From an uncultured Pelagibacteraceae bacterium (GTDB lineage: Bacteria > Pseudomonadota > Alphaproteobacteria > Pelagibacterales > Pelagibacteraceae), in contig CACIWJ010000003.1 of the NCBI GenBank assembly GCA_902590365.1, forward strand, positions 1 to 36,355: 36,355 nt of DNA, given 5' to 3'. Both the position numbers and the translations under genes were made by a program. The notes below the pieces were generated by a model, which worked only from the letters and a program-made list of their open reading frames with translations, ran no database searches and was not told where the DNA came from. Within the stretch, counting starts at the first letter, position 1, and the number at the start of each line of letters is the position of its first letter. This document shows positions 10,568 to 35,913 of the stretch, piece after piece.

Positions 10568-10957
10568 ATGAATAAAATTCTTGTAGAAGTTTCTATTGGT
10601 GAGCTTTTGGATAAAATTTCAATTTTAGAAATAAAAAAAGAAAAAATCAAAGATACAGATAAGTTAAAGTTTATAAATGATGAGTATAACATTTTGAATG
10701 ATCAATTTAAAAAGAATGTCAAAACTGATGATAAACTCAATCAATTATTTAAATCATTAAAAGAAATAAACGCAAAACTTTGGCTAATTGAAGACGAAAA
10801 AAGGATGTACGAAAAAAACTCAGACTTTGGAGAAAAATTTATAAAAGTATCCAGAGATATACATTTTTTTAATGATGATAGAGCCAAAATAAAATTAGAA
10901 ATAAATAATCACACTGGTTCAAAAATAAAAGAAATTAAAGAATATACTGCCTATTAA
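10568..10957 (+). CDS. DUF6165-like family protein
   Basis: MNKILVEVSIGELLDKISILEIKKEKI...LWLIEDEKR...DIHFFNDDRAKIKLEIN; recalled family pattern for small proteins next to LPS glycosyltransferases. Confidence 0.7.
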   Translation: MNKILVEVSIGELLDKISILEIKKEKIKDTDKLKFINDEYNILNDQFKKNVKTDDKLNQLFKSLKEINAKLWLIEDEKRMYEKNSDFGEKFIKVSRDIHFFNDDRAKIKLEINNHTGSKIKEIKEYTAY

Positions 10958-11745
10958 TTTGCATCAAGAACAGCATGAAGAAATTGTTTAGTTCTTTCAT
11001 TTTTTGGATCACCAAATAATTGATCTGGTGGACCTTGCTCAAAAATTTTTCCTTCATTAAAAAAACATACACGGTCAGAAATTTCGCGAGCAAAACCCAT
11101 TTGATGAGTTACCATTATCATTGTAAGACTATGTTCCTTATTTAAAGATCTGATTACATTTAATACCTCTCCTACTACTTCTGGATCAAGCGATGATGTA
11201 ATTTCATCTAACAGCATAACTTTCGGTCTCATAGCTAAAGCTCTTGCAATTGCTACTCGTTGTTGTTGTCCTCCAGACAGTCTAGTTGGATGCTGATCTT
11301 TCTTATCTGTTAAACCAACTAATTCTAATAACTCTAAAGCTCTTTCTTCTGCATCTTCTTTTTTCATTCCTAAAACTTCCACAGGAGCTTCAATACAATT
11401 TTGAAGAGCTGTCATATGTGGAAATAAATTAAATTGTTGAAATACCATTCCAATTTTTGATCTTCTGTCTCTCAAATATTTTTCATTTGCTTCAACTAAT
11501 TTTCCACTTGAGTCCATATGAGTAAGGGGTTCACCATCTAAATGAATGATGCCTCCATTGATTTTTTCTAAAGTCATTAAAACTCTTAAAACAGTTGTTT
11601 TTCCTGAACCAGATGGTCCAATAATTGACACCATTTCATTTTTTTTAATATCTAAATTAAGTTTATCTAAAACTACTAAATCACCATATTGTTTTGTTAC
11701 TTCTTCAAACTTAACTATAATTTCATCAGAATTTTTATTTTTCAT
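10954..11745 (-). CDS. ehuA: Polar amino acid/ectoine-type ABC transporter ATP-binding protein
   Basis: Walker A GPSGSGKT, signature LSGGQQQRVAIARAL, Walker B VMLLDEITSSLDPE; follows ehuB-C-D order. Confidence 0.85.
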   Translation of the reverse strand: MKNKNSDEIIVKFEEVTKQYGDLVVLDKLNLDIKKNEMVSIIGPSGSGKTTVLRVLMTLEKINGGIIHLDGEPLTHMDSSGKLVEANEKYLRDRRSKIGMVFQQFNLFPHMTALQNCIEAPVEVLGMKKEDAEERALELLELVGLTDKKDQHPTRLSGGQQQRVAIARALAMRPKVMLLDEITSSLDPEVVGEVLNVIRSLNKEHSLTMIMVTHQMGFAREISDRVCFFNEGKIFEQGPPDQLFGDPKNERTKQFLHAVLDAN

Positions 11746-11757
11746 ATTTTAAATATG

Positions 11758-12435
11758 TTATTGTTTAATTTTTCCTTGAGCAACATTAACTCTTCTTTCT
11801 AATTTTCTAACCCACATAGCAGCTGGAACAGAAAGAATTAAGAATATTACACCAACCATTGTATAAGGTTCCAAATATCTATAATTATAACCACCTACTG
11901 CTGTTGCTGCATGAAATAATTCAGCAACTCCTATTGTTGATAAAAGTGGAGTATCTTTAAAAATTCCTACTAAATAATTTCCCATTCCTGGAATAGCTAT
12001 AGGAAACGCTTGAGGTAAAACTATTCTTCTATAAGTGTATACAGTTGAGAAGTTTAGCGCTCTACAAGCTTCCCATTGTGTTTTTGATACACCTTCTAAC
12101 GCTCCCCTATAAACTTCTGAAAGATAAGTTCCAAAATGTAGACCAATTGTAATCATTCCACATAACCATGCTGATAATTTTATGCCAAATTGAGGTAATA
12201 CAAAGTAAACAAAAAATAATTGTATTAAAAGTGGCGTTGAACGGATGAATTCAACTATCTCTCTGTTGATTACATTTATAATTTTATAAGGAGTTCTTTG
12301 GCCAAGTAAAAAAAATAATCCTACAACCAAAGCTATTGCATAACCTACACCTGCAGCAATTATAGTATTTAAAGTTGCCAGTAACATTTGTGGTAAAATT
12401 TCATAAGCAAAATCCCACTTAAATCCCATTTCCAT
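11758..12435 (-). CDS. ehuD: ABC transporter permease, EhuD-like
   Basis: HisMQ-type permease: EFIRSTPLLIQLFFVYFVLPQFGIKL, EVYRGALEGVSKTQWEACRALNFS. Confidence 0.8.
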   Translation of the reverse strand: MEMGFKWDFAYEILPQMLLATLNTIIAAGVGYAIALVVGLFFLLGQRTPYKIINVINREIVEFIRSTPLLIQLFFVYFVLPQFGIKLSAWLCGMITIGLHFGTYLSEVYRGALEGVSKTQWEACRALNFSTVYTYRRIVLPQAFPIAIPGMGNYLVGIFKDTPLLSTIGVAELFHAATAVGGYNYRYLEPYTMVGVIFLILSVPAAMWVRKLERRVNVAQGKIKQ

Positions 12436-12436
12436 A

Positions 12437-13108
12437 TTAAGCCTTTCCTCTTCCTACTTTTTTTGCAGCTAAAACCTCTAACCATCTTAAAAAAGGTACA
12501 AGCGCAAACCTCGCCATAAAATAATAAATTAGTAAAGCTGTTCCAAAACATTGTGCTGAAAGCCACGTAATAGAATTAATTTGTTTTGCTTCAAAAGTTA
12601 AATCAACAACAGTAACCAAAGCCACAAGTGCTGTCGCTTTTAAAAGTTCTACTGTTAGGTTTGCAGCTGGTGGCAAAATAATTGGAAATATTTGTGGAAT
12701 TATAATTCTTTTAATTCTTTTTGCTGGACTAAAATTAAGTGCATGCGCAGCTTCCCATTGTCCTTTGGGAACTGCTAATATGCCTCCTCTAACTATTTCA
12801 GCTCCATACGCACCAAAGTTCAAACCTAGTGCTGCTACACCTGCTGTAAAAGCTTCTAATGAAATACCAAAAAATGGAAGCACATAATACGCCCAAAATA
12901 ATTGAACTAATAAAGATGTTCCTCTAAAAAATTCTATATAAACAGTCGCTGTTCCTTGAACGATTGGGTTCTTGGATAAACGCATCAATCCAAAAATCAT
13001 TGAAATAATTACATAAAGAATAATTGAACAAACTAATACCTTAACTGTTGTAACTGTTCCTAGTAACAGTGTTGTTCCATGTTCAGCTAAGAATGCAAAA
13101 TAACTCAA
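12437..13108 (-). CDS. ehuC: ABC transporter permease, EhuC-like
   Basis: HisMQ-type permease: EFFRGTSLLVQLFWAYYVLPFFGISL, EIVRGGILAVPKGQWEAAHALNFS. Confidence 0.8.
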   Translation of the reverse strand: MSYFAFLAEHGTTLLLGTVTTVKVLVCSIILYVIISMIFGLMRLSKNPIVQGTATVYIEFFRGTSLLVQLFWAYYVLPFFGISLEAFTAGVAALGLNFGAYGAEIVRGGILAVPKGQWEAAHALNFSPAKRIKRIIIPQIFPIILPPAANLTVELLKATALVALVTVVDLTFEAKQINSITWLSAQCFGTALLIYYFMARFALVPFLRWLEVLAAKKVGRGKA

Positions 13109-13136
13109 TGTGTAACCATCAATTAAAACTAAATGA

Positions 13137-13167
13137 AATCAGGCGACCGTTATTTGATCGCCTGATT
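13137..13167 (-). promoter_or_regulatory. GC-rich stem-loop between SBP gene (ehuB) and permease gene (ehuC)
   Basis: Perfect 10-bp inverted repeat AATCAGGCGA (13137-13146) / TCGCCTGATT (13158-13167), 11-nt loop, immediately 3' of the ehuB stop. Confidence 0.8.
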
Positions 13168-13188
13168 AAATAATTATATAAAAAAATA

Positions 13189-14034
13189 CTACTTAGTTGA
13201 GCAAGCCCACTCAGTAGTCATATCAGAAGGAGGTAATTGAGCTTTATCGTACCCGTACTCACCAGCTCTCTCTAACATCTTAGCTGGATTAGCCATAACT
13301 TTAGCTAAAGCAACATTGAAAGCTTCTCTGAACTCACTATCACTTTTTCTAAAACCAATACCTACTACGTTAACAGTTTCTTTAGGCATTAATTTAGGAT
13401 CAGTAACTTCAAATTTACCACCTGTTTTTTCTTCATGTTCTTTTGCACCAAAGAAAGTTTGAACAGCAGCGTCAGCTCTTCCTGCTTTCATAGCAGCAAG
13501 TATTCCTACCTCACCTTCAACTAATAACATTTGGCTATCTGGAACACCAAATTTTTTAGCTGCTTCAACAGTATTGAAACCTGCACCTGTTACTAGCATA
13601 GCTCCTGTATCAATAACATCTTGGTAATTATTAATATTTTTTGGATTTCCTTTTGGCACCAACATTGCATCACCAAAAACACCTATTGGATCAGAAAAGT
13701 CAATATTCGCACATCTACTTTTTAGAATGTACATACCGCCAGTAATCATATCAGAACGATTTGCGTTGATTCCAGGAATCAAACCAGACCATTCAAAAAC
13801 TTTAGTTTCATGTTCTGTAATCCCCATTTCTTCTAAAACAGTCAAAGCAATCATGTTAACAAAACCTAATGCTTCACCGTTATCACCTGCATAAGCCCAT
13901 GGCACAGCAGTACCAAAGCCAAGTCTTAACTTGTGTCCATCTTTTAATCTATCAGTCAGTGTTGCTGCACTAACAGAAGAAATACTAAAAATGATAACAA
14001 GAAAAACTGTAAAAGATTTAAAAAATCTATTCAT
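13189..14034 (-). CDS. ehuB: Family 3 extracellular solute-binding protein, EhuB-like
   Basis: Signal peptide MNRFFKSFTVFLVIIFSISSVSAA; SBP_bac_3 pattern LRLGFGTAVPWAYAGDNGEALGFVNMIALTVLEEMG. Confidence 0.8.
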   Translation of the reverse strand: MNRFFKSFTVFLVIIFSISSVSAATLTDRLKDGHKLRLGFGTAVPWAYAGDNGEALGFVNMIALTVLEEMGITEHETKVFEWSGLIPGINANRSDMITGGMYILKSRCANIDFSDPIGVFGDAMLVPKGNPKNINNYQDVIDTGAMLVTGAGFNTVEAAKKFGVPDSQMLLVEGEVGILAAMKAGRADAAVQTFFGAKEHEEKTGGKFEVTDPKLMPKETVNVVGIGFRKSDSEFREAFNVALAKVMANPAKMLERAGEYGYDKAQLPPSDMTTEWACSTK

Positions 14035-14936: not shown

Positions 14937-15764
14937 TTAATACTTTCCAATTTTTTCAGAGCCAAAATAAAAAATTTTTGATAATTCTTCATTTGCTTTA
15001 TTTTGAGAAATAACTTCTTTTCTTCCCATTAGTTCTGTCGGAATATTTGAGTACTCATGATATTTATATTTATCTTCTCCTCTTGCTTTCTGAACATACA
15101 TTTTTCCTAGCACTTGATCAACATTACTACCTATATAACTTTGAATAACAAAACCAATTCTTCTATCATCACTATAATTTAAACCTGAACCGTGAACAAT
15201 TTTTGGATGATGTAAAGACATTTGTCCTGCTTTTAGAATTACAGGATCAGTTTTATCTAGAGAAACATTTTTAATTGTTTGTCCACGTGTTAATAAATTA
15301 TTTTCATCAAATTTTTGTTCATGATGTCTTAAATTTTCTTTGTGTGAACCTGATAACATTCTCATACAGCCATTATTCTCATTAGCATCAGTAATTGCTA
15401 CCCAAACTGTAACCCAATTGTGAGGTTCTAAACCTATATATTTTGCATCTTGGTGAAAACTAACAAACCCTTTTTCTTTAGGGTTTTTTATAAACAACGT
15501 AGTACCACAAATAAGAATATTTTTACCAATAATACTTTCAACTGCATCTAAAATATTTTTATTTAAACAAACTTTATTAAATACTGGTGAAATCAGATGA
15601 ACATAGTTACGATTAATTCCTTCTAGAGCTTTTGGCCAATTTTTTTCAATTTTTTCTATTTCATCTCTAATTTCTTTAGCTTCAGTAGAAGTCAAAGCAT
15701 ACACAGGCGAAATATAACCTTTATTTTTATAATAATCTAATTGCTCTGTTGTTAATTTGGTCAT
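14937..15764 (-). CDS. Phytanoyl-CoA dioxygenase (PhyH)-family Fe(II)/2-oxoglutarate oxygenase
   Basis: GFVSFHQDAKYIG (HxD), distal LHHPKIVHGSGLNYSDDRRIGF (H and R), WVAITDANENNGCMRMLSGSH. Confidence 0.9.
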   Translation of the reverse strand: MTKLTTEQLDYYKNKGYISPVYALTSTEAKEIRDEIEKIEKNWPKALEGINRNYVHLISPVFNKVCLNKNILDAVESIIGKNILICGTTLFIKNPKEKGFVSFHQDAKYIGLEPHNWVTVWVAITDANENNGCMRMLSGSHKENLRHHEQKFDENNLLTRGQTIKNVSLDKTDPVILKAGQMSLHHPKIVHGSGLNYSDDRRIGFVIQSYIGSNVDQVLGKMYVQKARGEDKYKYHEYSNIPTELMGRKEVISQNKANEELSKIFYFGSEKIGKY

Positions 15765-16441
15765 TGTGAATAACCATATTTTTTCTCTAAAAATTTTATT
15801 AAATTGTGAATTATAAAAGTCATAAATAAATAAATACCACCAGCAACAATAAATACTTCTATAGGTTTAAATGTTGTAGAAATTATATATTTTGCTACTC
15901 CAGTCAAATCCATCAATGTCACTGTGCTTGCTAGAGAAGTTCCTTTCATCATTAATATAATTTCATTGCCGTATGCTGGAAGAGATTGCCTGATAGCTAT
16001 AGGGATTTGAATTTTATAAAAAATTATTTTATTAGATATTCCCAAACTTTTTCCTGCTTCAATAAACCCTGGCTTGATTGTTTGAAAAGCAGATCTTAAT
16101 ATTTCCGATGTATAAGCCCCGGTATTTAAAGCAAAAGCTATAATTGCACACCAGTAAGGTTCTTTAAAGACAACCCATAAAAAAGTTGATCTAAAGTATT
16201 CTATTTGCCCTAAACCAAAATAGATAATAAATATTTGAACAAGCAATGGTGTACCTCTAAATACATAAGAGTATCCGTAGGCAAATTTATTTATAATTTT
16301 ATTTTTACTTAATCTTAAAATTGCAAATAATAACCCAATAAATAAACCAAAAAACAAAGATAGAGATAATAATTTTAACGTTACGACGGCAGCATCTAAT
16401 AACTTTGGAAAACTGGTTATCATTAAATTTATATCCATCAA
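15761..16441 (-). CDS. Polar amino acid ABC transporter permease (HisM-like)
   Basis: YVFRGTPLLVQIFIIYFGLGQIEYF; EILRSAFQTIKPGFIEAGKSLGIS; 4-bp overlap with upstream permease. Confidence 0.9.
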   Translation of the reverse strand: MMDINLMITSFPKLLDAAVVTLKLLSLSLFFGLFIGLLFAILRLSKNKIINKFAYGYSYVFRGTPLLVQIFIIYFGLGQIEYFRSTFLWVVFKEPYWCAIIAFALNTGAYTSEILRSAFQTIKPGFIEAGKSLGISNKIIFYKIQIPIAIRQSLPAYGNEIILMMKGTSLASTVTLMDLTGVAKYIISTTFKPIEVFIVAGGIYLFMTFIIHNLIKFLEKKYGYSQ

Positions 16442-17130
16442 AAGCCCCTACTATATTTAATTTCCAATCTATTAATTAACTTCATGCTTAAAAATGTAAG
16501 TAATAAATATAAAACTGCAGCAAATGAATAAAAGAAAAGTGGATCTCTAGTTGAGCCAGCAGCAATGTATGATTGTCTCATTATTTCAACTAAACCTGTA
16601 ACTGATATTAGTGATGTGTCTTTTAAAGTAATTTGCCAAACGTTACTCAAATTAGGAATTGCCAATCTTAACATTTGAGGCATGATTACTCTAAAAAAAT
16701 AAACAAATCTTTTAAGTCCTAAAACTTGTGAAGCTTCAAACTGTCCTCTGTCTATAGATTGAATAGCTCCTCTAAAAACTTCTGTTGAATATGCACCAGA
16801 TATAATACCGATAGCGAATGATCCAGTTATAAATGCATTAATTTCGATATATTCGTTGTACCCAAATATAGACGCTACATACATAACAGCACCACTTCCA
16901 CCAAAAAAAAATAAATAAATTACTAGTAATTCTGGAACTCCTCTGATTACCGTTGTGTAAGAATTTCCAATAAAATTAAAAAATTTATTTTTGGATAATT
17001 TAAGTGGAGTAAATATTAATGCAAAAAGAAAACCTATAAACATAGCTGTTATTGAAACAGCAATGGTCATTAGAGTGGCAATAAATAATTCATCACCCCA
17101 ACCAGTTTTTCCAAATGCTAGAAGTTCCAT
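16438..17130 (-). CDS. Polar amino acid ABC transporter permease (HisQ-like)
   Basis: TTVIRGVPELLVIYLFFFGGSGAVM; TEVFRGAIQSIDRGQFEASQVLGL. Confidence 0.9.
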   Translation of the reverse strand: MELLAFGKTGWGDELFIATLMTIAVSITAMFIGFLFALIFTPLKLSKNKFFNFIGNSYTTVIRGVPELLVIYLFFFGGSGAVMYVASIFGYNEYIEINAFITGSFAIGIISGAYSTEVFRGAIQSIDRGQFEASQVLGLKRFVYFFRVIMPQMLRLAIPNLSNVWQITLKDTSLISVTGLVEIMRQSYIAAGSTRDPLFFYSFAAVLYLLLTFLSMKLINRLEIKYSRGF

Positions 17131-17174: not shown

Positions 17175-18002
17175 TTACATAGATGCGTCGAAACCGAACC
17201 ATTTAGTAGCAATTCTACTAATGTCTCCGTTCTTTCTCGCTTGATCAATTGCTTTGTTAAAAGCTTGTAAAAGTTCAGTATCATCTTGTCTGATACCAAC
17301 TCCTACACCATTACCAAATGCACCACCTGAAAAAGTTGGTCCAACTAAAACAACTGGTTTACCTGATTTTTCTGCATAATCACTAAATGCTACCGCAGCA
17401 GCTAATGCAGCATCACATCTACCAGATGCTAAATCTAGGTTAACCTCGTCTTGTGTTTTATAAGTTCTTACATTCACTTTTCCAACATCACCTGAATCTA
17501 AAAAGTTTTGGTGAATTGTTGCCGTTTGAACACAAACCGTTTTTCCAGCTAAGGCAGCTGTAAGAGTTTTTAAAGCTTTTTTTGCAGCAGCGTTAGGCTT
17601 TGTTAAATTTATTCCAGCAGGAGTATCCATGCCTTCAAGACTAGAACCTTTCATAACTGCTAGTGAAGCAACTTCATCTGCATAACCTTGAGAAAAACTA
17701 ATTGCTTTTTGTCTTTCTGCAGTAATCGACATCCCTGCCATTATTGCATCGAACTTTCTCATTATAAGTGCTGGAATCATTCCATCCCAATCTTGTTCAA
17801 CGATTACACATTGTTTTCCCATGTATCTACAAAGAGCCCATGCTAATTCAACTTCAAATCCAATAAGTTTACCTGAAGCATCTTTTGAATTCCAAGGTGG
17901 GTAAGCGCCCTCTGTTCCTATTTTTATTTTGTCAGCATTAGCAGATATTGTTAAAAATAAAGTTATCAATAACCCTAAGCTGAATTTTTTGATTATATTC
18001 AT
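17175..18002 (-). CDS. Family 3 extracellular solute-binding protein (basic amino acid / opine-type)
   Basis: Signal peptide; KIKIGTEGAYPPWNSKDASGKLIGFEVELAWALCRYMGKQCVIVEQDWDGMIPALIMRKFDAIMAGMSITAERQKAISFS is typical of lysine/arginine/ornithine-type SBPs. Confidence 0.85.
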   Translation of the reverse strand: MNIIKKFSLGLLITLFLTISANADKIKIGTEGAYPPWNSKDASGKLIGFEVELAWALCRYMGKQCVIVEQDWDGMIPALIMRKFDAIMAGMSITAERQKAISFSQGYADEVASLAVMKGSSLEGMDTPAGINLTKPNAAAKKALKTLTAALAGKTVCVQTATIHQNFLDSGDVGKVNVRTYKTQDEVNLDLASGRCDAALAAAVAFSDYAEKSGKPVVLVGPTFSGGAFGNGVGVGIRQDDTELLQAFNKAIDQARKNGDISRIATKWFGFDASM

Positions 18003-18059: not shown

Positions 18060-19100
18060 TTATTTATTTAATGAAGAAGCAAAATTCCATGAACAATCAA
18101 AACTTGGTATATAAATTCTATCTAGAGATGTATTACCAAAGCTTTTATCAAACAAATTAAGCCAATTATCTACTTGCTTAGGTTTTTTATCTTGGCTACC
18201 CACTTGAGCTGTTATTGTTCCATTAGGTTTTAAAATTCTTTTTAATGAATTTATATTTTTTGCTGCAAGATCAATACAATATTGATCATCATTCAAATCT
18301 ACAAAAATTTTATCATATTTATTATCTTCAACTTTTTTAATACTTTCAAATGCATCACCCCAAACACACTGTACAGAATTTTTAGCAGTAGCTTTTTCTC
18401 CAATTTTTGAAATATGTTTTTCACAAACATGCACTACTTCAGGGTCAAGTTCATACCAATCTATAAGATTAAATCCTTGTGAAATACATTCTCTAGCAAC
18501 TCCACCGTCTCCACCACCAATTATTGCTGATTTATCTTTTGCAGAATTTAGTTTGATGCCAGAGTTAACAAATGTGGAGCTATATAAATGTTCATCGCTT
18601 TCAGCTACCTGAAGTTCATTATCTATAAATAAAGATTTTCCAAATTGTTCTAAATCTAAAATTTCAATATGTTGACCTACTTTTGATGTAAAATCTTCTA
18701 AAACATTTTTTACTATATAAAATTTCTTAAGGCCTGGAGAGCTATAAATATCATCGTAATAACTAACTGTATCCCTATTAAATTCCTTTTTAATAATTCG
18801 CTTGTGTTTAATTTCTTTTTTTAAAATATCTAACGCAACTGTTGGACTAATCTTTCCACATGTAAAAAAATCAAAACTAATAATTCCTTTTTCTGGAAAA
18901 GTGTGAAAACTGATATGGCTTTCTGCTAATAAAGCTACCAAAGTAAAACCTTGAGGTTCAAACTTATATTTAGAAATTTCTAGTACCGTTACTTTTGCTT
19001 TTTTTGCAATTTTATAAACTAACTTCTCAAAGAATTTTGGCTCATATTCTTTGCTAGTTCCAATAATGTCTAAAGTAACGTGCTCCCCCACTTTACTCAT
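18060..19100 (-). CDS. speD-speE: Fused S-adenosylmethionine decarboxylase / spermidine synthase-like aminopropyltransferase
   Basis: N-terminal SpeD with LLAESHISFHTFPEKGIISFDFFTCG (pyruvoyl-Ser region); C-terminal SpeE-like SAIIGGGDGGVARECISQG and WYELDPEVV, in one 346-aa frame. Confidence 0.92.
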   Translation of the reverse strand: MSKVGEHVTLDIIGTSKEYEPKFFEKLVYKIAKKAKVTVLEISKYKFEPQGFTLVALLAESHISFHTFPEKGIISFDFFTCGKISPTVALDILKKEIKHKRIIKKEFNRDTVSYYDDIYSSPGLKKFYIVKNVLEDFTSKVGQHIEILDLEQFGKSLFIDNELQVAESDEHLYSSTFVNSGIKLNSAKDKSAIIGGGDGGVARECISQGFNLIDWYELDPEVVHVCEKHISKIGEKATAKNSVQCVWGDAFESIKKVEDNKYDKIFVDLNDDQYCIDLAAKNINSLKRILKPNGTITAQVGSQDKKPKQVDNWLNLFDKSFGNTSLDRIYIPSFDCSWNFASSLNK

Positions 19101-19106
19101 AAAAAA

Positions 19107-19766
19107 TTATCCTTTTTTATAACTTTTTATTTTCTCCAAGATTTTTTGCATTTCTGTAAATGAAAGAATCTTTGGCTCTCCTAACTTTATTGTATTTATG
19201 TATTGATGACAAATGTTTTCAACTTCTTCAGCAAGTTCAAAAGCTTGTTTTAAATTTTGCCCAAATGCAACCTGGCCGTGGTTTGACATCAAACACGCTT
19301 TTCTTTTTTCTAAAGCTTTAATAATATTTTGAGAAAGTTCTTTAGTTCCAAAAGTTGCATATTCTGAGCATTTTATGTCTTCTCCGCCTGCAAGTGCTAT
19401 CATATAATGGAAGGCAGGAACTGATTTACCATGTGCCGATACAGCTGTAGCGTGAGGTGAATGAGCGTGAACGATTGCTTTAGCTTCTTTTTTTTTTAAA
19501 TAAATATCTTGGTGAAAACGCCACTCTGAAGAAGGATTCAATCCTGAGTTAAAAATTTTTAAAAAATCATACTCTTTATTTAATTCTAAAAAAACAATAT
19601 CTGTTTCTTTAAGTGCTTCATATTTTATTCCTGATGGAGTAATTAAAAAACCTTCAATATTATTAATGTTAGTTCTTACAGAAACATTTCCGGATCTTAA
19701 AGGTGAAAGATTACTGGTGTTAAGTTTTTGAGCAAATTTTATTACTTCTTCTTTCAAATTTTGCAT
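19107..19766 (-). CDS. Class II aldolase/adducin family protein (fuculose-phosphate aldolase-like; candidate DHAP-shunt aldolase)
   Basis: GNVSVR, PSSEWRFHQDIYLKKKEAKAIVHAHSPHATAVS (HxH), SNHGQVAFGQNLKQAFELAEEVENICHQYI; next to mtnA/mtnP. Confidence 0.85.
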   Translation of the reverse strand: MQNLKEEVIKFAQKLNTSNLSPLRSGNVSVRTNINNIEGFLITPSGIKYEALKETDIVFLELNKEYDFLKIFNSGLNPSSEWRFHQDIYLKKKEAKAIVHAHSPHATAVSAHGKSVPAFHYMIALAGGEDIKCSEYATFGTKELSQNIIKALEKRKACLMSNHGQVAFGQNLKQAFELAEEVENICHQYINTIKLGEPKILSFTEMQKILEKIKSYKKG

Positions 19767-19969
19767 TATTTTTTAAGTTTTTTATTAATTTCTGTTTCAC
19801 AAAAATTTTTAATTTCTTCCCCAGTTTTATTTTTTGACAAATTTTTTTGTGCTATCATGCATGCTTTAAGAGATTTTTCATAACTAAATGAGCCATACTC
19901 AAATTTTGTTAAATACAAAGCCAAAATAGCTAAAATTACAAAAATAATTGGATACAAGTTTTTTTTCAT
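19766..19969 (-). CDS. Small single-pass membrane/exported protein, unknown function
   Basis: 67 aa, N-terminal hydrophobic helix, two Cys; overlaps mtnA by 4 bp and the aldolase start by 1 bp. Confidence 0.7.
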   Translation of the reverse strand: MKKNLYPIIFVILAILALYLTKFEYGSFSYEKSLKACMIAQKNLSKNKTGEEIKNFCETEINKKLKK

Positions 19970-21036
19970 TTAAATATTTTTTTTAAACCTTCTTCAGATG
20001 CCTTACAAACTCCTTTTTCTGTTATAAGTCCTGTAACATATTTAGCAGGAGTTATATCAAAAGCTAAATTCATTGCTTTACTTTTTTTTGGATAAATTTG
20101 GATTTTTTTTACATTTCCATTATCGTCCAAGCCTTCTATGTGTGATAGTTCTTCTGATTGCCTCTCTTCTATTGGTATATCTTTGTAATTTTTTATTTCC
20201 CAATCAATTGTCGAACTTGGCAATGCTACATAAAAAGGTACATTATTATCTTTGGCTGCTAGTGCTTTTAAATATGTTCCAATTTTATTACAAACATCAC
20301 CATTTGCTAAAGTTCTATCTGTCCCAACTATACACATATCAACCTGTCCTCTTTGCATTAAAATACCTCCGGTGTTGTCTGCAATAATAGTATTAGATAC
20401 GTTCTCTTCATTTAATTCATAAGAAGTTAAATTAGCTCCTTGGTTTCTTGGTCTTGTTTCATCAGCCCACACATGAACTGGTATTCCTTTTTTATGTGCA
20501 TGATAAATTGGAGAAGTTGCTGTTCCCCAATTAATTGTTGCAAGCCATCCAGCGTTACAATGAGTTAAAATGTTTACTGTATCTTTTTTTTTATTATAAA
20601 TTTCCTCAATTATTTTAAGACCATTTAGTCCAATATTTTCACAGAACTTAACATCTTCTTCACAAATTTCTTTTGCTTCATTTAATGCTATTTTTAAAAT
20701 TTCATTACTATTAACTCCTGATAATTTATTTATCATTCTATCAACTGCCCACTTTAAATTAATAGCTGTTGGTCTTGAATTAATTAAATTTTCTGCTGAT
20801 TTTTTTAAAAATGATTGATCATTATTTTCAATAATAGCTAAAACTAATCCATAAGCTGCTGTAGCTCCAATAAGAGGTGCACCTCTAACCTCCATAGTTT
20901 TAATTGCATTAATTGCATCTTTTACTGTTTTTAGATCTTTAATGATAAATTTATGCGGAAGTTTTGTTTGATCGATAATTTTAACAACATTATTTTCAAA
21001 CCATATAGTTCGATATTCTTTGCCTTCAATTTTCAT
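19966..21036 (-). CDS. mtnA: S-methyl-5-thioribose-1-phosphate isomerase
   Basis: MEVRGAPLIGATAAYGL, LTHCNAGWLAT, VWADETRPRNQGANLTSYEL, IVGTDRTLANGDVCNKIGTY. Confidence 0.93.
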   Translation of the reverse strand: MKIEGKEYRTIWFENNVVKIIDQTKLPHKFIIKDLKTVKDAINAIKTMEVRGAPLIGATAAYGLVLAIIENNDQSFLKKSAENLINSRPTAINLKWAVDRMINKLSGVNSNEILKIALNEAKEICEEDVKFCENIGLNGLKIIEEIYNKKKDTVNILTHCNAGWLATINWGTATSPIYHAHKKGIPVHVWADETRPRNQGANLTSYELNEENVSNTIIADNTGGILMQRGQVDMCIVGTDRTLANGDVCNKIGTYLKALAAKDNNVPFYVALPSSTIDWEIKNYKDIPIEERQSEELSHIEGLDDNGNVKKIQIYPKKSKAMNLAFDITPAKYVTGLITEKGVCKASEEGLKKIFK

Positions 21037-21902
21037 TTATTTAAAACTCTACCAGCTATTGTTTTAAGTTTATCTTTTGTTTTCTGAGTTCTTTTTTCAG
21101 GCGCAGTAATGATTGCTACATCTAAACAATTGTTTGTCGGGTCTTTTGGATCAATATGTTGTTCAAAATTATCTATTAGATTTTTAATCATATTTTTTGC
21201 TTTTGCTGCGTTTCCTAAAAGAACTTTTATAACTTGTTGAACATCTACATTCTCATGATCTGGATGCCAGCAATCATAGTCTGTTACCATTGAAACTGAT
21301 GCATATCTAATTTCTGCTTCTCTTGCTAATTTAGCCTCAGGCATATTTGTCATTCCAATTACATCAGCTTTCCAGGATCTATATAATTTGGACTCTGCTA
21401 ATGTAGAAAATTGAGGACCTTCCATAACCACATAAGTTCCTCCTTTTTGATATTCTATTTTTTCTTTTTTAATAGCTTCTTCGCACGCATTCATTAGTGC
21501 ATTAGATGTGGGATGTGCCATAGAAACATGAGCAACTATCTCATCATCAAAGAAAGTTTTATTTCTTGCAAAAGTTCTATCTATAAATTGATCAACAATA
21601 ACAAATTTTCCTGGTGGTAAATCTTCTTTTAATGATCCTACCGCTGAAACTGAAACTATATCAGTAGCACCTAATTGTTTGAGTGCATCAATATTGGCTC
21701 TAAAATTTATATTTGAAGGGTTGATAAAGTGACCACGCCCGTGTCTTGGAAGAAAATAAACTTCTTTATTGTTATAAGTTGTTTTTAAAATTTTGTCAGA
21801 AGGCTTACCCCAGGGTGTATTAATTTCTAATAATTCCCTATCTTTAAATTCTTCAACATCATAAAGGCCGCTTCCACCAATTACAGCTAATTTATTTGTC
21901 AT
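21033..21902 (-). CDS. mtnP: S-methyl-5'-thioadenosine phosphorylase
   Basis: LAVIGGSGLYDVEEF, FLPRHGRGHFINPSNINFRANIDALK, VVMEGPQFSTLAESKLYRSWKADVIGMTNMPEAKLAREAE. Confidence 0.93.
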   Translation of the reverse strand: MTNKLAVIGGSGLYDVEEFKDRELLEINTPWGKPSDKILKTTYNNKEVYFLPRHGRGHFINPSNINFRANIDALKQLGATDIVSVSAVGSLKEDLPPGKFVIVDQFIDRTFARNKTFFDDEIVAHVSMAHPTSNALMNACEEAIKKEKIEYQKGGTYVVMEGPQFSTLAESKLYRSWKADVIGMTNMPEAKLAREAEIRYASVSMVTDYDCWHPDHENVDVQQVIKVLLGNAAKAKNMIKNLIDNFEQHIDPKDPTNNCLDVAIITAPEKRTQKTKDKLKTIAGRVLNK

Positions 21903-21942
21903 ATTATTTAAAATGATTTAATTATTTATAACTTAAAAATTT

Positions 21943-22470
21943 ATGGATTTAAAAGAATATATTAGATCAATACCAGACTATCCCAAAAAAGGAATATTAT
22001 TTAGAGATATTACTACTCTAATTAAAGACGAAAAAGCATTCACAGAATGTATTAATCAAATTGTTGAAAAGTCAAAAAATTTTAAATTTAATAAAATTGC
22101 AGCAATTGAATCTAGAGGTTTTGTGTTTGCTTCAGCAGTATCATATTTATTAAAAAAACCTTTTATAATGTTGAGAAAAAAAAATAAATTGCCAGCAGAC
22201 ACTTACTCCGTTGATTTTGAGCTTGAATATGGAACAGCTACAATTGAAGTACATAAAGACTCGATACAAAAAGAAGATTCTGTACTCATAATTGATGATT
22301 TGATTGCAACTGGTGGAACAGCTGAAGCAGCGGCCAAACTTGTGAAAATATCTAAAGGAAGTATTGCAGGATTTATATTTGTAATTAACTTATTTGATTT
22401 AGGTGGTTGTGATAGTATAAAAAAACAGGGCCACAAAGTAGAAAACTTAATTGAATTTCCAGGACATTAA
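21943..22470 (+). CDS. apt: Adenine phosphoribosyltransferase
   Basis: IPDYPKKGILFRDITTLIKD, AAIESRGFVFASAVSYLLKKPFIMLRKKNKLP, VLIIDDLIATGGTAEAAAKLV. Confidence 0.95.
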   Translation: MDLKEYIRSIPDYPKKGILFRDITTLIKDEKAFTECINQIVEKSKNFKFNKIAAIESRGFVFASAVSYLLKKPFIMLRKKNKLPADTYSVDFELEYGTATIEVHKDSIQKEDSVLIIDDLIATGGTAEAAAKLVKISKGSIAGFIFVINLFDLGGCDSIKKQGHKVENLIEFPGH

Positions 22471-27220: not shown

Positions 27221-27297
27221 TGGTAGCGGGAAGTGGGATCGAACCACTGACCTCGGGCTTATGAGTCCCGCGCTCTAACCAACTGAGCTACCCCGCC
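27221..27297 (-). tRNA. tRNA-Met (anticodon CAT, elongator-like), CCA encoded
   Basis: Minus strand GGCGGGGTAGCTCAGTTGGTTAGAGCGCGGGACTCATAAGCCCGAGGTCAGTGGTTCGATCCCACTTCCCGCTACCA folds as a cloverleaf; loop CTCATAA gives anticodon CAT. Confidence 0.95.
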
Positions 27298-35472: not shown

Positions 35473-35913
35473 TTAAATCATTTGTAATCCAACACCTGTT
35501 TTTGGGTAAGTGTAAAGATTATAATTTGCAGTTAATTCATCACCAGGTTTGACATCTTTTATTGTTACCATAAACATAAATTTTGCATCAATTTTTTCAT
35601 GTAAATTGTAATACATGTTTTCTCTATCGGTTTTTCCATCTTTTATCTGTTTGCCGGTCTTACTTGGATCTATGATATCTCCAAACTTTAATCTTGGCAG
35701 AAAATCTGAAACCATTCTTATTACTGTTGGATTGTTTGAGTGATTATAAAAGCCACCTAAGGGGGTTCTTATATATTTATTCTCAAATTGTTCATCTCTA
35801 ATATGCGTTACTCCAATAAATGAATTTATTTTTATATCAATAGTAGAAAATAAACCTAAACCTTCGATTGGAGAATTTTTAATAGTTAGTCCGTTGGGTA
35901 AAGGTCTATACAT
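35473..35913 (-). CDS. SET domain-containing protein (putative lysine methyltransferase)
   Basis: SPIEGLGLFSTIDIKINSFIG, GGFYNHSNNPT (NHSxxP-type), VKPGDELTANYNLY (GEELTxxY-type). Confidence 0.75.
   Translation of the reverse strand: MYRPLPNGLTIKNSPIEGLGLFSTIDIKINSFIGVTHIRDEQFENKYIRTPLGGFYNHSNNPTVIRMVSDFLPRLKFGDIIDPSKTGKQIKDGKTDRENMYYNLHEKIDAKFMFMVTIKDVKPGDELTANYNLYTYPKTGVGLQMI

Follow-up and report, generated by a model that had tools for sequence, protein, structure and literature searches.

In Rhodospirillum rubrum and Rhodopseudomonas palustris, the dihydroxyacetone phosphate (DHAP) shunt enzymes MtnP, MtnA, and Ald2 turn 5'-methylthioadenosine (MTA) into adenine, DHAP, and 2-(methylthio)acetaldehyde, and in R. 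palustris the aerobic form of this route leads to methanethiol (PMC5893883). A kinase variant of the shunt works in Escherichia coli (PMC10986504, PMC12632272). In SAR11 bacteria, the fused S-adenosylmethionine (AdoMet) decarboxylase-aminopropyltransferases of HTCC1062 and HTCC7211 make spermidine and spermine or thermospermine, and the decarboxylase domain is active (PMC11107197). The subject here is a locus in which genes of both kinds lie side by side. It was found in a stretch of 36,355 nucleotides (GenBank assembly GCA_902590365.1, contig CACIWJ010000003.1), called the window below, from an uncultured bacterium of the Pelagibacteraceae (SAR11). Taken as a whole, the locus very probably represents the form that the DHAP shunt takes in SAR11, linked there to polyamine synthesis. 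The chemistry of MtnP-MtnA-Ald2 is known from other bacteria; what is new is its physical union with speD::speE, the gene of the fused enzyme (speDE below), together with a swappable third slot.

Gene content and conservation of the locus

The window's own assembly is 57.6% complete, and statements on absent genes therefore rest on its relatives. The closest named of these are single-cell and metagenome-assembled genomes of Pelagibacteraceae with aldolases at most 85% identical, which places the window in SAR11. The features of the locus, including one 67-amino-acid open reading frame (ORF), are as follows.

18060..19100, minus strand, speD::speE fusion, AdoMet decarboxylase-aminopropyltransferase, 346 amino acids (PF02675 and PF01564 in one ORF)
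19107..19766, minus strand, class II aldolase (PF00596, 2e-49)
19766..19969, minus strand, 67-amino-acid ORF with a hydrophobic N-terminus (no family above cut-off)
19966..21036, minus strand, mtnA, methylthioribose-1-phosphate isomerase, 356 amino acids (TIGR00512, 423 bits, cut-off 279)
21033..21902, minus strand, mtnP, 5'-methylthioadenosine phosphorylase, 289 amino acids (PRK08931, 446.5 bits, cut-off 437; TIGR01694, 312.6 bits, cut-off 274.85)
21903..21942, no strand, intergenic sequence of 40 bp between mtnP and apt (read directly)
21943..22470, plus strand, apt, adenine phosphoribosyltransferase (TIGR01090, 195.2 bits, cut-off 185.85)

The five minus-strand genes, from mtnP to speDE, overlap by 4, 4, and 1 bp, with a 6-bp gap before speDE. 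A first-pass annotation made from the sequence had described a compact run in one direction with apt divergent at 40 bp; the coordinates confirm this layout, and family searches support all of the enzyme names it had given. The MTA phosphorylase and the isomerase both score above curated cut-offs, their genes overlap by 4 bp, and a class II aldolase of the Ald2 type is linked to them, so that the gene set of a DHAP shunt is present. In SpeD::SpeE, PF02675 covers residues 7-109 (1.1e-26) and PF01564 residues 170-338 (9.9e-19). A class 1b AdoMet decarboxylase domain thus lies N-terminal to the aminopropyltransferase, the architecture of SAR11 SpeD::SpeE, and full-length relatives occur across the family. 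The self-cleavage motif AESHIS and the motif FTCG can be read directly. The 40-bp gap between mtnP and apt likely holds divergent promoters. No Rfam riboswitch was found upstream of mtnP and speDE, the sole Rfam match of the window being a tRNA gene (27224-27297, minus strand, RF00005, 62.6 bits). Matches in promoter and terminator scans were no commoner than in shuffled sequence, and no transcript boundary is therefore claimed.

In the proposed mechanism, SpeD::SpeE would decarboxylate AdoMet and transfer aminopropyl groups, releasing one MTA per transfer. MtnP would split MTA by phosphorolysis into adenine, which Apt would convert to AMP, and 5-methylthioribose-1-phosphate, which MtnA would isomerise to 5-methylthioribulose-1-phosphate. 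Cleavage of the latter by the FucA-like aldolase would give 2-(methylthio)acetaldehyde and DHAP, the DHAP passing into central metabolism. 5'-Deoxyadenosine would be handled by the same enzymes.

Conservation was followed in 80 named Pelagibacteraceae loci, retrieved by way of their aldolase, in a survey of 118 genomes of the order, and in a gene-order comparison of the window with 40 fetched stretches. All 79 named loci that reach far enough carry speDE 3' of the aldolase, on the same strand and at a gap of 1-28 bp, and mtnA is present in 75 of the 80. This clustering is far beyond chance, and it upholds another part of the first-pass annotation, namely that the genes for making and for degrading MTA are physically coupled. 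Orthologues of mtnP and mtnA occur in 62 and 64 of the 118 order genomes, respectively. The full order apt / mtnP-mtnA-aldolase-speDE-solute-binding protein is kept in simple form in 49 named loci, 38 without and 11 with an ORF of the 67-amino-acid type. That ORF is matched in 16 of the 80 named loci and forms a cluster of four members, the window included, among the window and the fetched stretches; it is a sporadic small insert outside the conserved core and was set aside. In the fetched loci of the order, the mtnP-mtnA and mtnA-aldolase overlaps are mostly exactly 4 bp, the usual sign of coupled translation. Additionally, a divergent apt lies beside mtnP in 32 fetched loci and beside a nucleosidase-like gene, described below, in 4.

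The third enzyme and its replacements

Among solved structures, the aldolase is matched best by FucA (1fua/1dzx, 1e-48) and by DrdA (6btd, 8e-40). Its residues Glu81, His100, His102, Tyr121, His163, and Tyr216 equal Glu73, His92, His94, Tyr113, His155, and Tyr209 of FucA in 47 of 47 aligned sequences, E. coli Ald2 included, and are invariant in alignment A1. Identity is 38% to E. coli Ald2 (strain S88, L073:11370-12011) and 45% to FucA. An assignment as L-fuculose-phosphate aldolase (FucA) was rejected on the TIGR01086 score (176.7 bits, cut-off 400.25) and also on context, the identified neighbour genes of the aldolase including no fucose isomerase or kinase. On the models of MtnB, the third gene stays below both cut-offs, with 63.8 bits on TIGR03328 (cut-off 137.05) and 57.5 on PRK09220 (cut-off 226); E. 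coli Ald2 scores in the same range on TIGR03328 (68.5). The acireductone dioxygenase of canonical methionine salvage (mtnD/ARD) was above cut-off in none of the 118 order genomes, in a search whose control found Bacillus subtilis and others, and across the class strong matches are confined to 8 of 269 genomes. The MtnB assignment was rejected on these scores together with the absence of mtnD across the order. An aldolase rather than MtnB best fits the third enzyme, and its predicted substrate is 5-methylthioribulose-1-phosphate (and 5-deoxyribulose-1-phosphate). The first-pass preference for the aldolase is supported by the FucA residues and the low MtnB scores, and most strongly by the replacement with an aldolase::dehydrogenase described next together with the missing mtnD. 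Its statement that the window holds no mtnB, mtnC, or mtnD is true, and the possibility it raised of copies elsewhere was addressed, by way of mtnD, in the relatives.

Every one of the 64 order genomes with mtnA carries exactly one of two aldolase types, either the small aldolase (53) or a 677-amino-acid fusion (11); none has both, and none has the nucleosidase-like gene. Among all 118 order genomes, none shows more than one of these three slot states. In one additional genome with the small aldolase and no mtnA counted (G036), the contig ends right at the aldolase, and mtnA may lie beyond it. The 677-amino-acid protein joins a class II aldolase to a short-chain dehydrogenase (SDR) and is of the NF006192/PRK08324 type (PF00596 with PF13561/PF00106; NF006192, 901.7 bits, cut-off 639). 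In SAR11, the fusion gene occupies the position between mtnA and speDE but points the other way: in ten loci it diverges from speDE across 85-99 bp, and in seven its 3' end abuts that of mtnA. The SDR motifs TGxxxGxG and YxxxK are present in 26 of 26 fusion sequences checked. A third group of genomes is without mtnP, mtnA, and both aldolase types, and in five speDE-bearing order genomes of this group there is a short gene of the MTA/S-adenosylhomocysteine nucleosidase superfamily (PF01048; below NCBIfam cut-offs). The catalytic pattern of MTA nucleosidase, E...E...D, is visible in three of the four of these genes that were fetched and partly in the fourth. The positions of the replacements in the fetched stretches are as follows.

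L052:4147-6180, L053:5189-7222, L063:5692-7716, L112-L123, aldolase::SDR fusion loci across Alphaproteobacteria (NF006192, mtnA-linked)
L064:6320-6844, L065:4253-4780, L068:3850-4380, L070:3269-3805, nucleosidase-like gene of 174-178 amino acids between apt and speDE (4 fetched of 5)

In the mtnA tree within the order, well-supported branches force at least 6 changes between the aldolase types, and the closest mtnA to that of the window (94% identical, pair support 97/96) comes from a fusion genome. These switches and this close pair suggest that the small aldolase and the fusion are interchangeable parts of one function.

The same alternation can be seen beyond SAR11. The 122 mtnA-bearing alphaproteobacterial genomes examined outside SAR11 comprise 71 that encode the small aldolase and 48 that encode the fusion, 1 genome being counted in both groups, and 4 that encode neither (70 vs 47 exclusive; Fisher p 7e-28, ignoring phylogeny). 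Less than 3 kb from mtnA, and always on the same strand, lie 49 of the small aldolases and 26 of the fusions, and the class-level fusions are at least 44% identical to the SAR11 fusion. Frequent arrangements are mtnP-apt-mtnA-aldolase and mtnP-(apt)-mtnA-fusion. As an internal control, fusions from the same class that are more distant (29-34% identical) form their own clade; the mtnA-linked fusions form a separate one with a support of 99 (Shimodaira-Hasegawa-like approximate likelihood ratio test, SH-aLRT). The distant fusions lie beside L-rhamnose isomerase in 3 of 5 fetched loci (L128, L129, L131), and that of L128, the sole one of this set scored, is far above the RhaD_aldol-ADH cut-off. 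Those linked to rhamnose genes look like RhaEW enzymes; RhaEW is a proven L-rhamnulose-1-phosphate aldolase and NAD-dependent L-lactaldehyde dehydrogenase (PMC3870299). A RhaEW identity of the mtnA-linked fusion was rejected on its score on TIGR02632 (RhaD_aldol-ADH; 441 bits, cut-off 567.75), its linkage to mtnA instead of a rhamnose locus, and its separate clade.

On balance, the evidence leans slightly toward the NF006192-type fusion being a dedicated MTA-salvage enzyme of an oxidative branch, interchangeable with Ald2 while the rest of the locus stays as it is, which would cleave 5-methylthioribulose-1-phosphate and oxidise (methylthio)acetaldehyde with NAD+. The NAD-type SDR motifs and the precedent of RhaEW point to (methylthio)acetate as the product.

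Purpose of the locus and alternative explanations

The shared purpose of the locus in SAR11 is taken to be the removal of MTA, the by-product of polyamine synthesis, together with the recovery of adenine, because apt is adjacent in loci of each slot state and MTA would be removed by any of the three enzyme sets. Recovery of DHAP is likely as well and fits the two aldolase states. Sulfur reuse from the locus is possible; it fits no slot state by itself, and the nucleosidase state would not deliver sulfur. The first-pass annotation had spoken of a closed salvage route suited to a sulfur-limited organism. "Closed" is an overstatement, since the sulfur stops at the methylthio-aldehyde, for which no gene is linked to the window locus, and some relatives keep only the nucleosidase-like gene. 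The suitability for sulfur limitation is possible, and by-product removal with adenine recovery explains all three states with fewer assumptions. In fusion-bearing relatives the aldehyde is probably oxidised; in the window, reduction to methylthioethanol, oxidation, and conversion to methanethiol are all possible.

Co-expression with speDE had also been inferred; as an obligatory feature, this goes too far. In fusion-bearing relatives, the fusion gene runs away from speDE (85-99 bp) and toward mtnA, and mtnP, mtnA, and speDE are therefore not expected on one transcript there. A single transcript from mtnP to speDE is plausible in the window, and regulation by one transcript is no general property. 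A reverse direction of SpeE has been proposed for SAR11 (PMC8437039). MTA is the by-product of the forward reaction and would be a co-substrate of the reversed one, so that consumption of MTA by the product of a neighbouring gene would pull SpeE toward its forward reaction.

Several points weigh against a DHAP shunt tied to polyamine synthesis. With speDE divergent from its neighbour in fusion-bearing relatives, co-expression with it is inessential. The case against a canonical pathway in the relatives is built on mtnD, mtnB not having been searched for by its own family model, and the window's own genome is incomplete. An aldolase 38% identical to Ald2 and 45% to FucA is not proven by identity alone to have Ald2 specificity. 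Moreover, aldolase activity has also been reported for the plant enzyme DEP1, which is of the MtnB type (PMC6079011), and the residues therefore cannot fully exclude a dual function.

Among the alternatives, it is possible, if doubtful, that the locus serves primarily for sulfur salvage, the methylthio-aldehyde being converted to methanethiol and then to methionine as in R. palustris. The aerobic release of methanethiol by MtnP, MtnA, and Ald2 of that species (PMC5893883) is consistent with this, as is the need of SAR11 for reduced sulfur, for which methanethiol is usable (PMC8437039). However, no gene for a later step was recognised beside the window locus, five speDE genomes swap the three genes for a nucleosidase-like gene that alone yields no sulfur, and the fusion state, judged from RhaEW (PMC3870299), probably oxidises the aldehyde to an acid.

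Less probable, and on the whole unlikely, is that the main substrate is 5'-deoxyadenosine from radical SAM enzymes, with the proximity of speDE being incidental. The E. coli DHAP shunt is promiscuous and bifunctional (PMC10986504), and DrdA of Bacillus thuringiensis serves the disposal of 5-deoxyribose (PMC6079011). An incidental proximity is hard to reconcile with speDE lying within 28 bp of the aldolase in 79 of 79 named loci (found through the aldolase), and in 4 fetched loci the replacement resembling an MTA nucleosidase directly precedes speDE. Other Alphaproteobacteria have the mtn cluster without adjoining speDE, which suggests that both substrates are probably handled. It is very improbable that the aldolase is an MtnB dehydratase feeding conventional methionine salvage, with MtnC and MtnD encoded elsewhere: superfamily, mtnP and mtnA neighbours, and a weak model match (63.8 bits) are shared, and both chemistries can coexist, as DEP1 shows (PMC6079011), but the score is far below both cut-offs and in the range of the established aldolase E. 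coli Ald2, mtnD is above cut-off in 0 of 118 order genomes though mtnA is present in 64, and the slot alternatively holds another aldolase, fused to a dehydrogenase.

Surrounding genes and comparison with known systems

Downstream of speDE in the window lie transport genes of the ATP-binding cassette (ABC) type.

17175..18002, minus strand, family-3 solute-binding protein of the Lys/Arg/Orn type (TIGR01096, 2.3e-70, slightly below cut-off)
15761..17130, minus strand, two amino-acid ABC permease genes, ArtQ/ArtM-like (PF00528 and NCBIfam permease matches)

In 32 fetched loci, a solute-binding protein gene comes next 3' of speDE and in the same direction, mostly at 46-68 bp and whatever the state of the aldolase slot, and the order speDE-solute-binding protein-permease-permease is found in most fetched loci of the genus. 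It is conceivable that this transporter supplies a polyamine precursor. The block is without an ATPase gene beside it; a second polar-amino-acid ABC transporter, with binding protein, two permeases, and ATPase, lies nearby at 10954-14034. A PhyH-type dioxygenase gene (window 14937-15764; L035:3853-4641) adjoins the speDE-linked transporter block in many genomes and sits between mtnA and mtnP in L059 and L071. Inserts of unrelated genes of up to about 9 kb are found inside the mtnP-mtnA-aldolase-speDE stretch of relatives (L054:7208-8677, L059:6008-14981, L071:4604-13577, L066:5826-7860), so that repeated insertion is evidently tolerated there. On the apt side, too, gene content differs among relatives. 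In other SAR11 genera, a nitrilase-superfamily gene directly follows speDE (L041:9712-10509, L042, L049-L051); it resembles deaminated-glutathione amidase, with a weaker likeness to N-carbamoylputrescine amidase, and possibly acts in polyamine synthesis. Elsewhere in the window, 35473-35913 encodes a 146-amino-acid protein, SET-domain-like by eye only, flanked by FAD-dependent oxidoreductase-like genes and a truncated alanine-dehydrogenase-like gene.

SAR11 bacteria, among the most numerous cells on Earth, depend on reduced sulfur and produce their polyamines through a promiscuous fusion enzyme whose reversal has been proposed (PMC8437039). Their manner of MTA disposal bears on the direction of that enzyme and on the fate of the methylthio group, which could be reuse, oxidation, or loss in volatile form. 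Comparative genomics also indicates a role in MTA salvage for a widespread aldolase::dehydrogenase family that is generically named in databases. Furthermore, the DHAP-shunt gene set, not classical methionine salvage, accompanies mtnA in nearly all sampled mtnA-bearing Alphaproteobacteria. In the open-access literature, no paper combining SAR11 and the DHAP shunt was found, nor one linking the aldolase::SDR fusion to MTA; the main DHAP-shunt survey lay outside that search, so priority for the fusion assignment cannot be firmly claimed.

Compared with known systems, the window has the same domain fusion as the AdoMet decarboxylase-aminopropyltransferase of Ca. Pelagibacter (PMC11107197), and the available part of that report does not describe its genomic coupling to MTA disposal. 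RhaEW (PMC3870299), for which NAD-dependent aldehyde oxidation is established, shares the two-domain architecture of the mtnA-linked fusions, whereas the latter form a separate clade with NF006192 as their best model. In the DrdK-DrdI-DrdA system of B. thuringiensis (PMC6079011; PDB 6btd), a FucA-like aldolase likewise cuts a 5-modified ribulose-1-phosphate, and the catalytic Glu76 of DrdA is the counterpart of the conserved Glu in the window aldolase. In contrast to the SAR11 locus, that system is kinase-based, serves 5-deoxyribose disposal, and has a complete methionine salvage pathway alongside. The MtnK-MtnA-Ald2 shunt of E. coli (PMC10986504, PMC12632272) also has MtnA and a FucA-like aldolase adjacent, while a nucleosidase and a kinase replace MtnP, the genes belong to a genomic island that also encodes a transporter and the repressor MtnR, and the aldolase is the one 38% identical to that of the window. 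The MtnP form described from R. rubrum and R. palustris (PMC5893883) differs in that the SAR11 locus abuts speD::speE and has apt divergent; the species of that study are also mostly terrestrial, whereas SAR11 is an oligotrophic marine lineage. Many Alphaproteobacteria share the cluster of this form, often as mtnP-apt-mtnA-aldolase, and with the same three enzyme families the SAR11 locus fits its aerobic MtnP-type variant.

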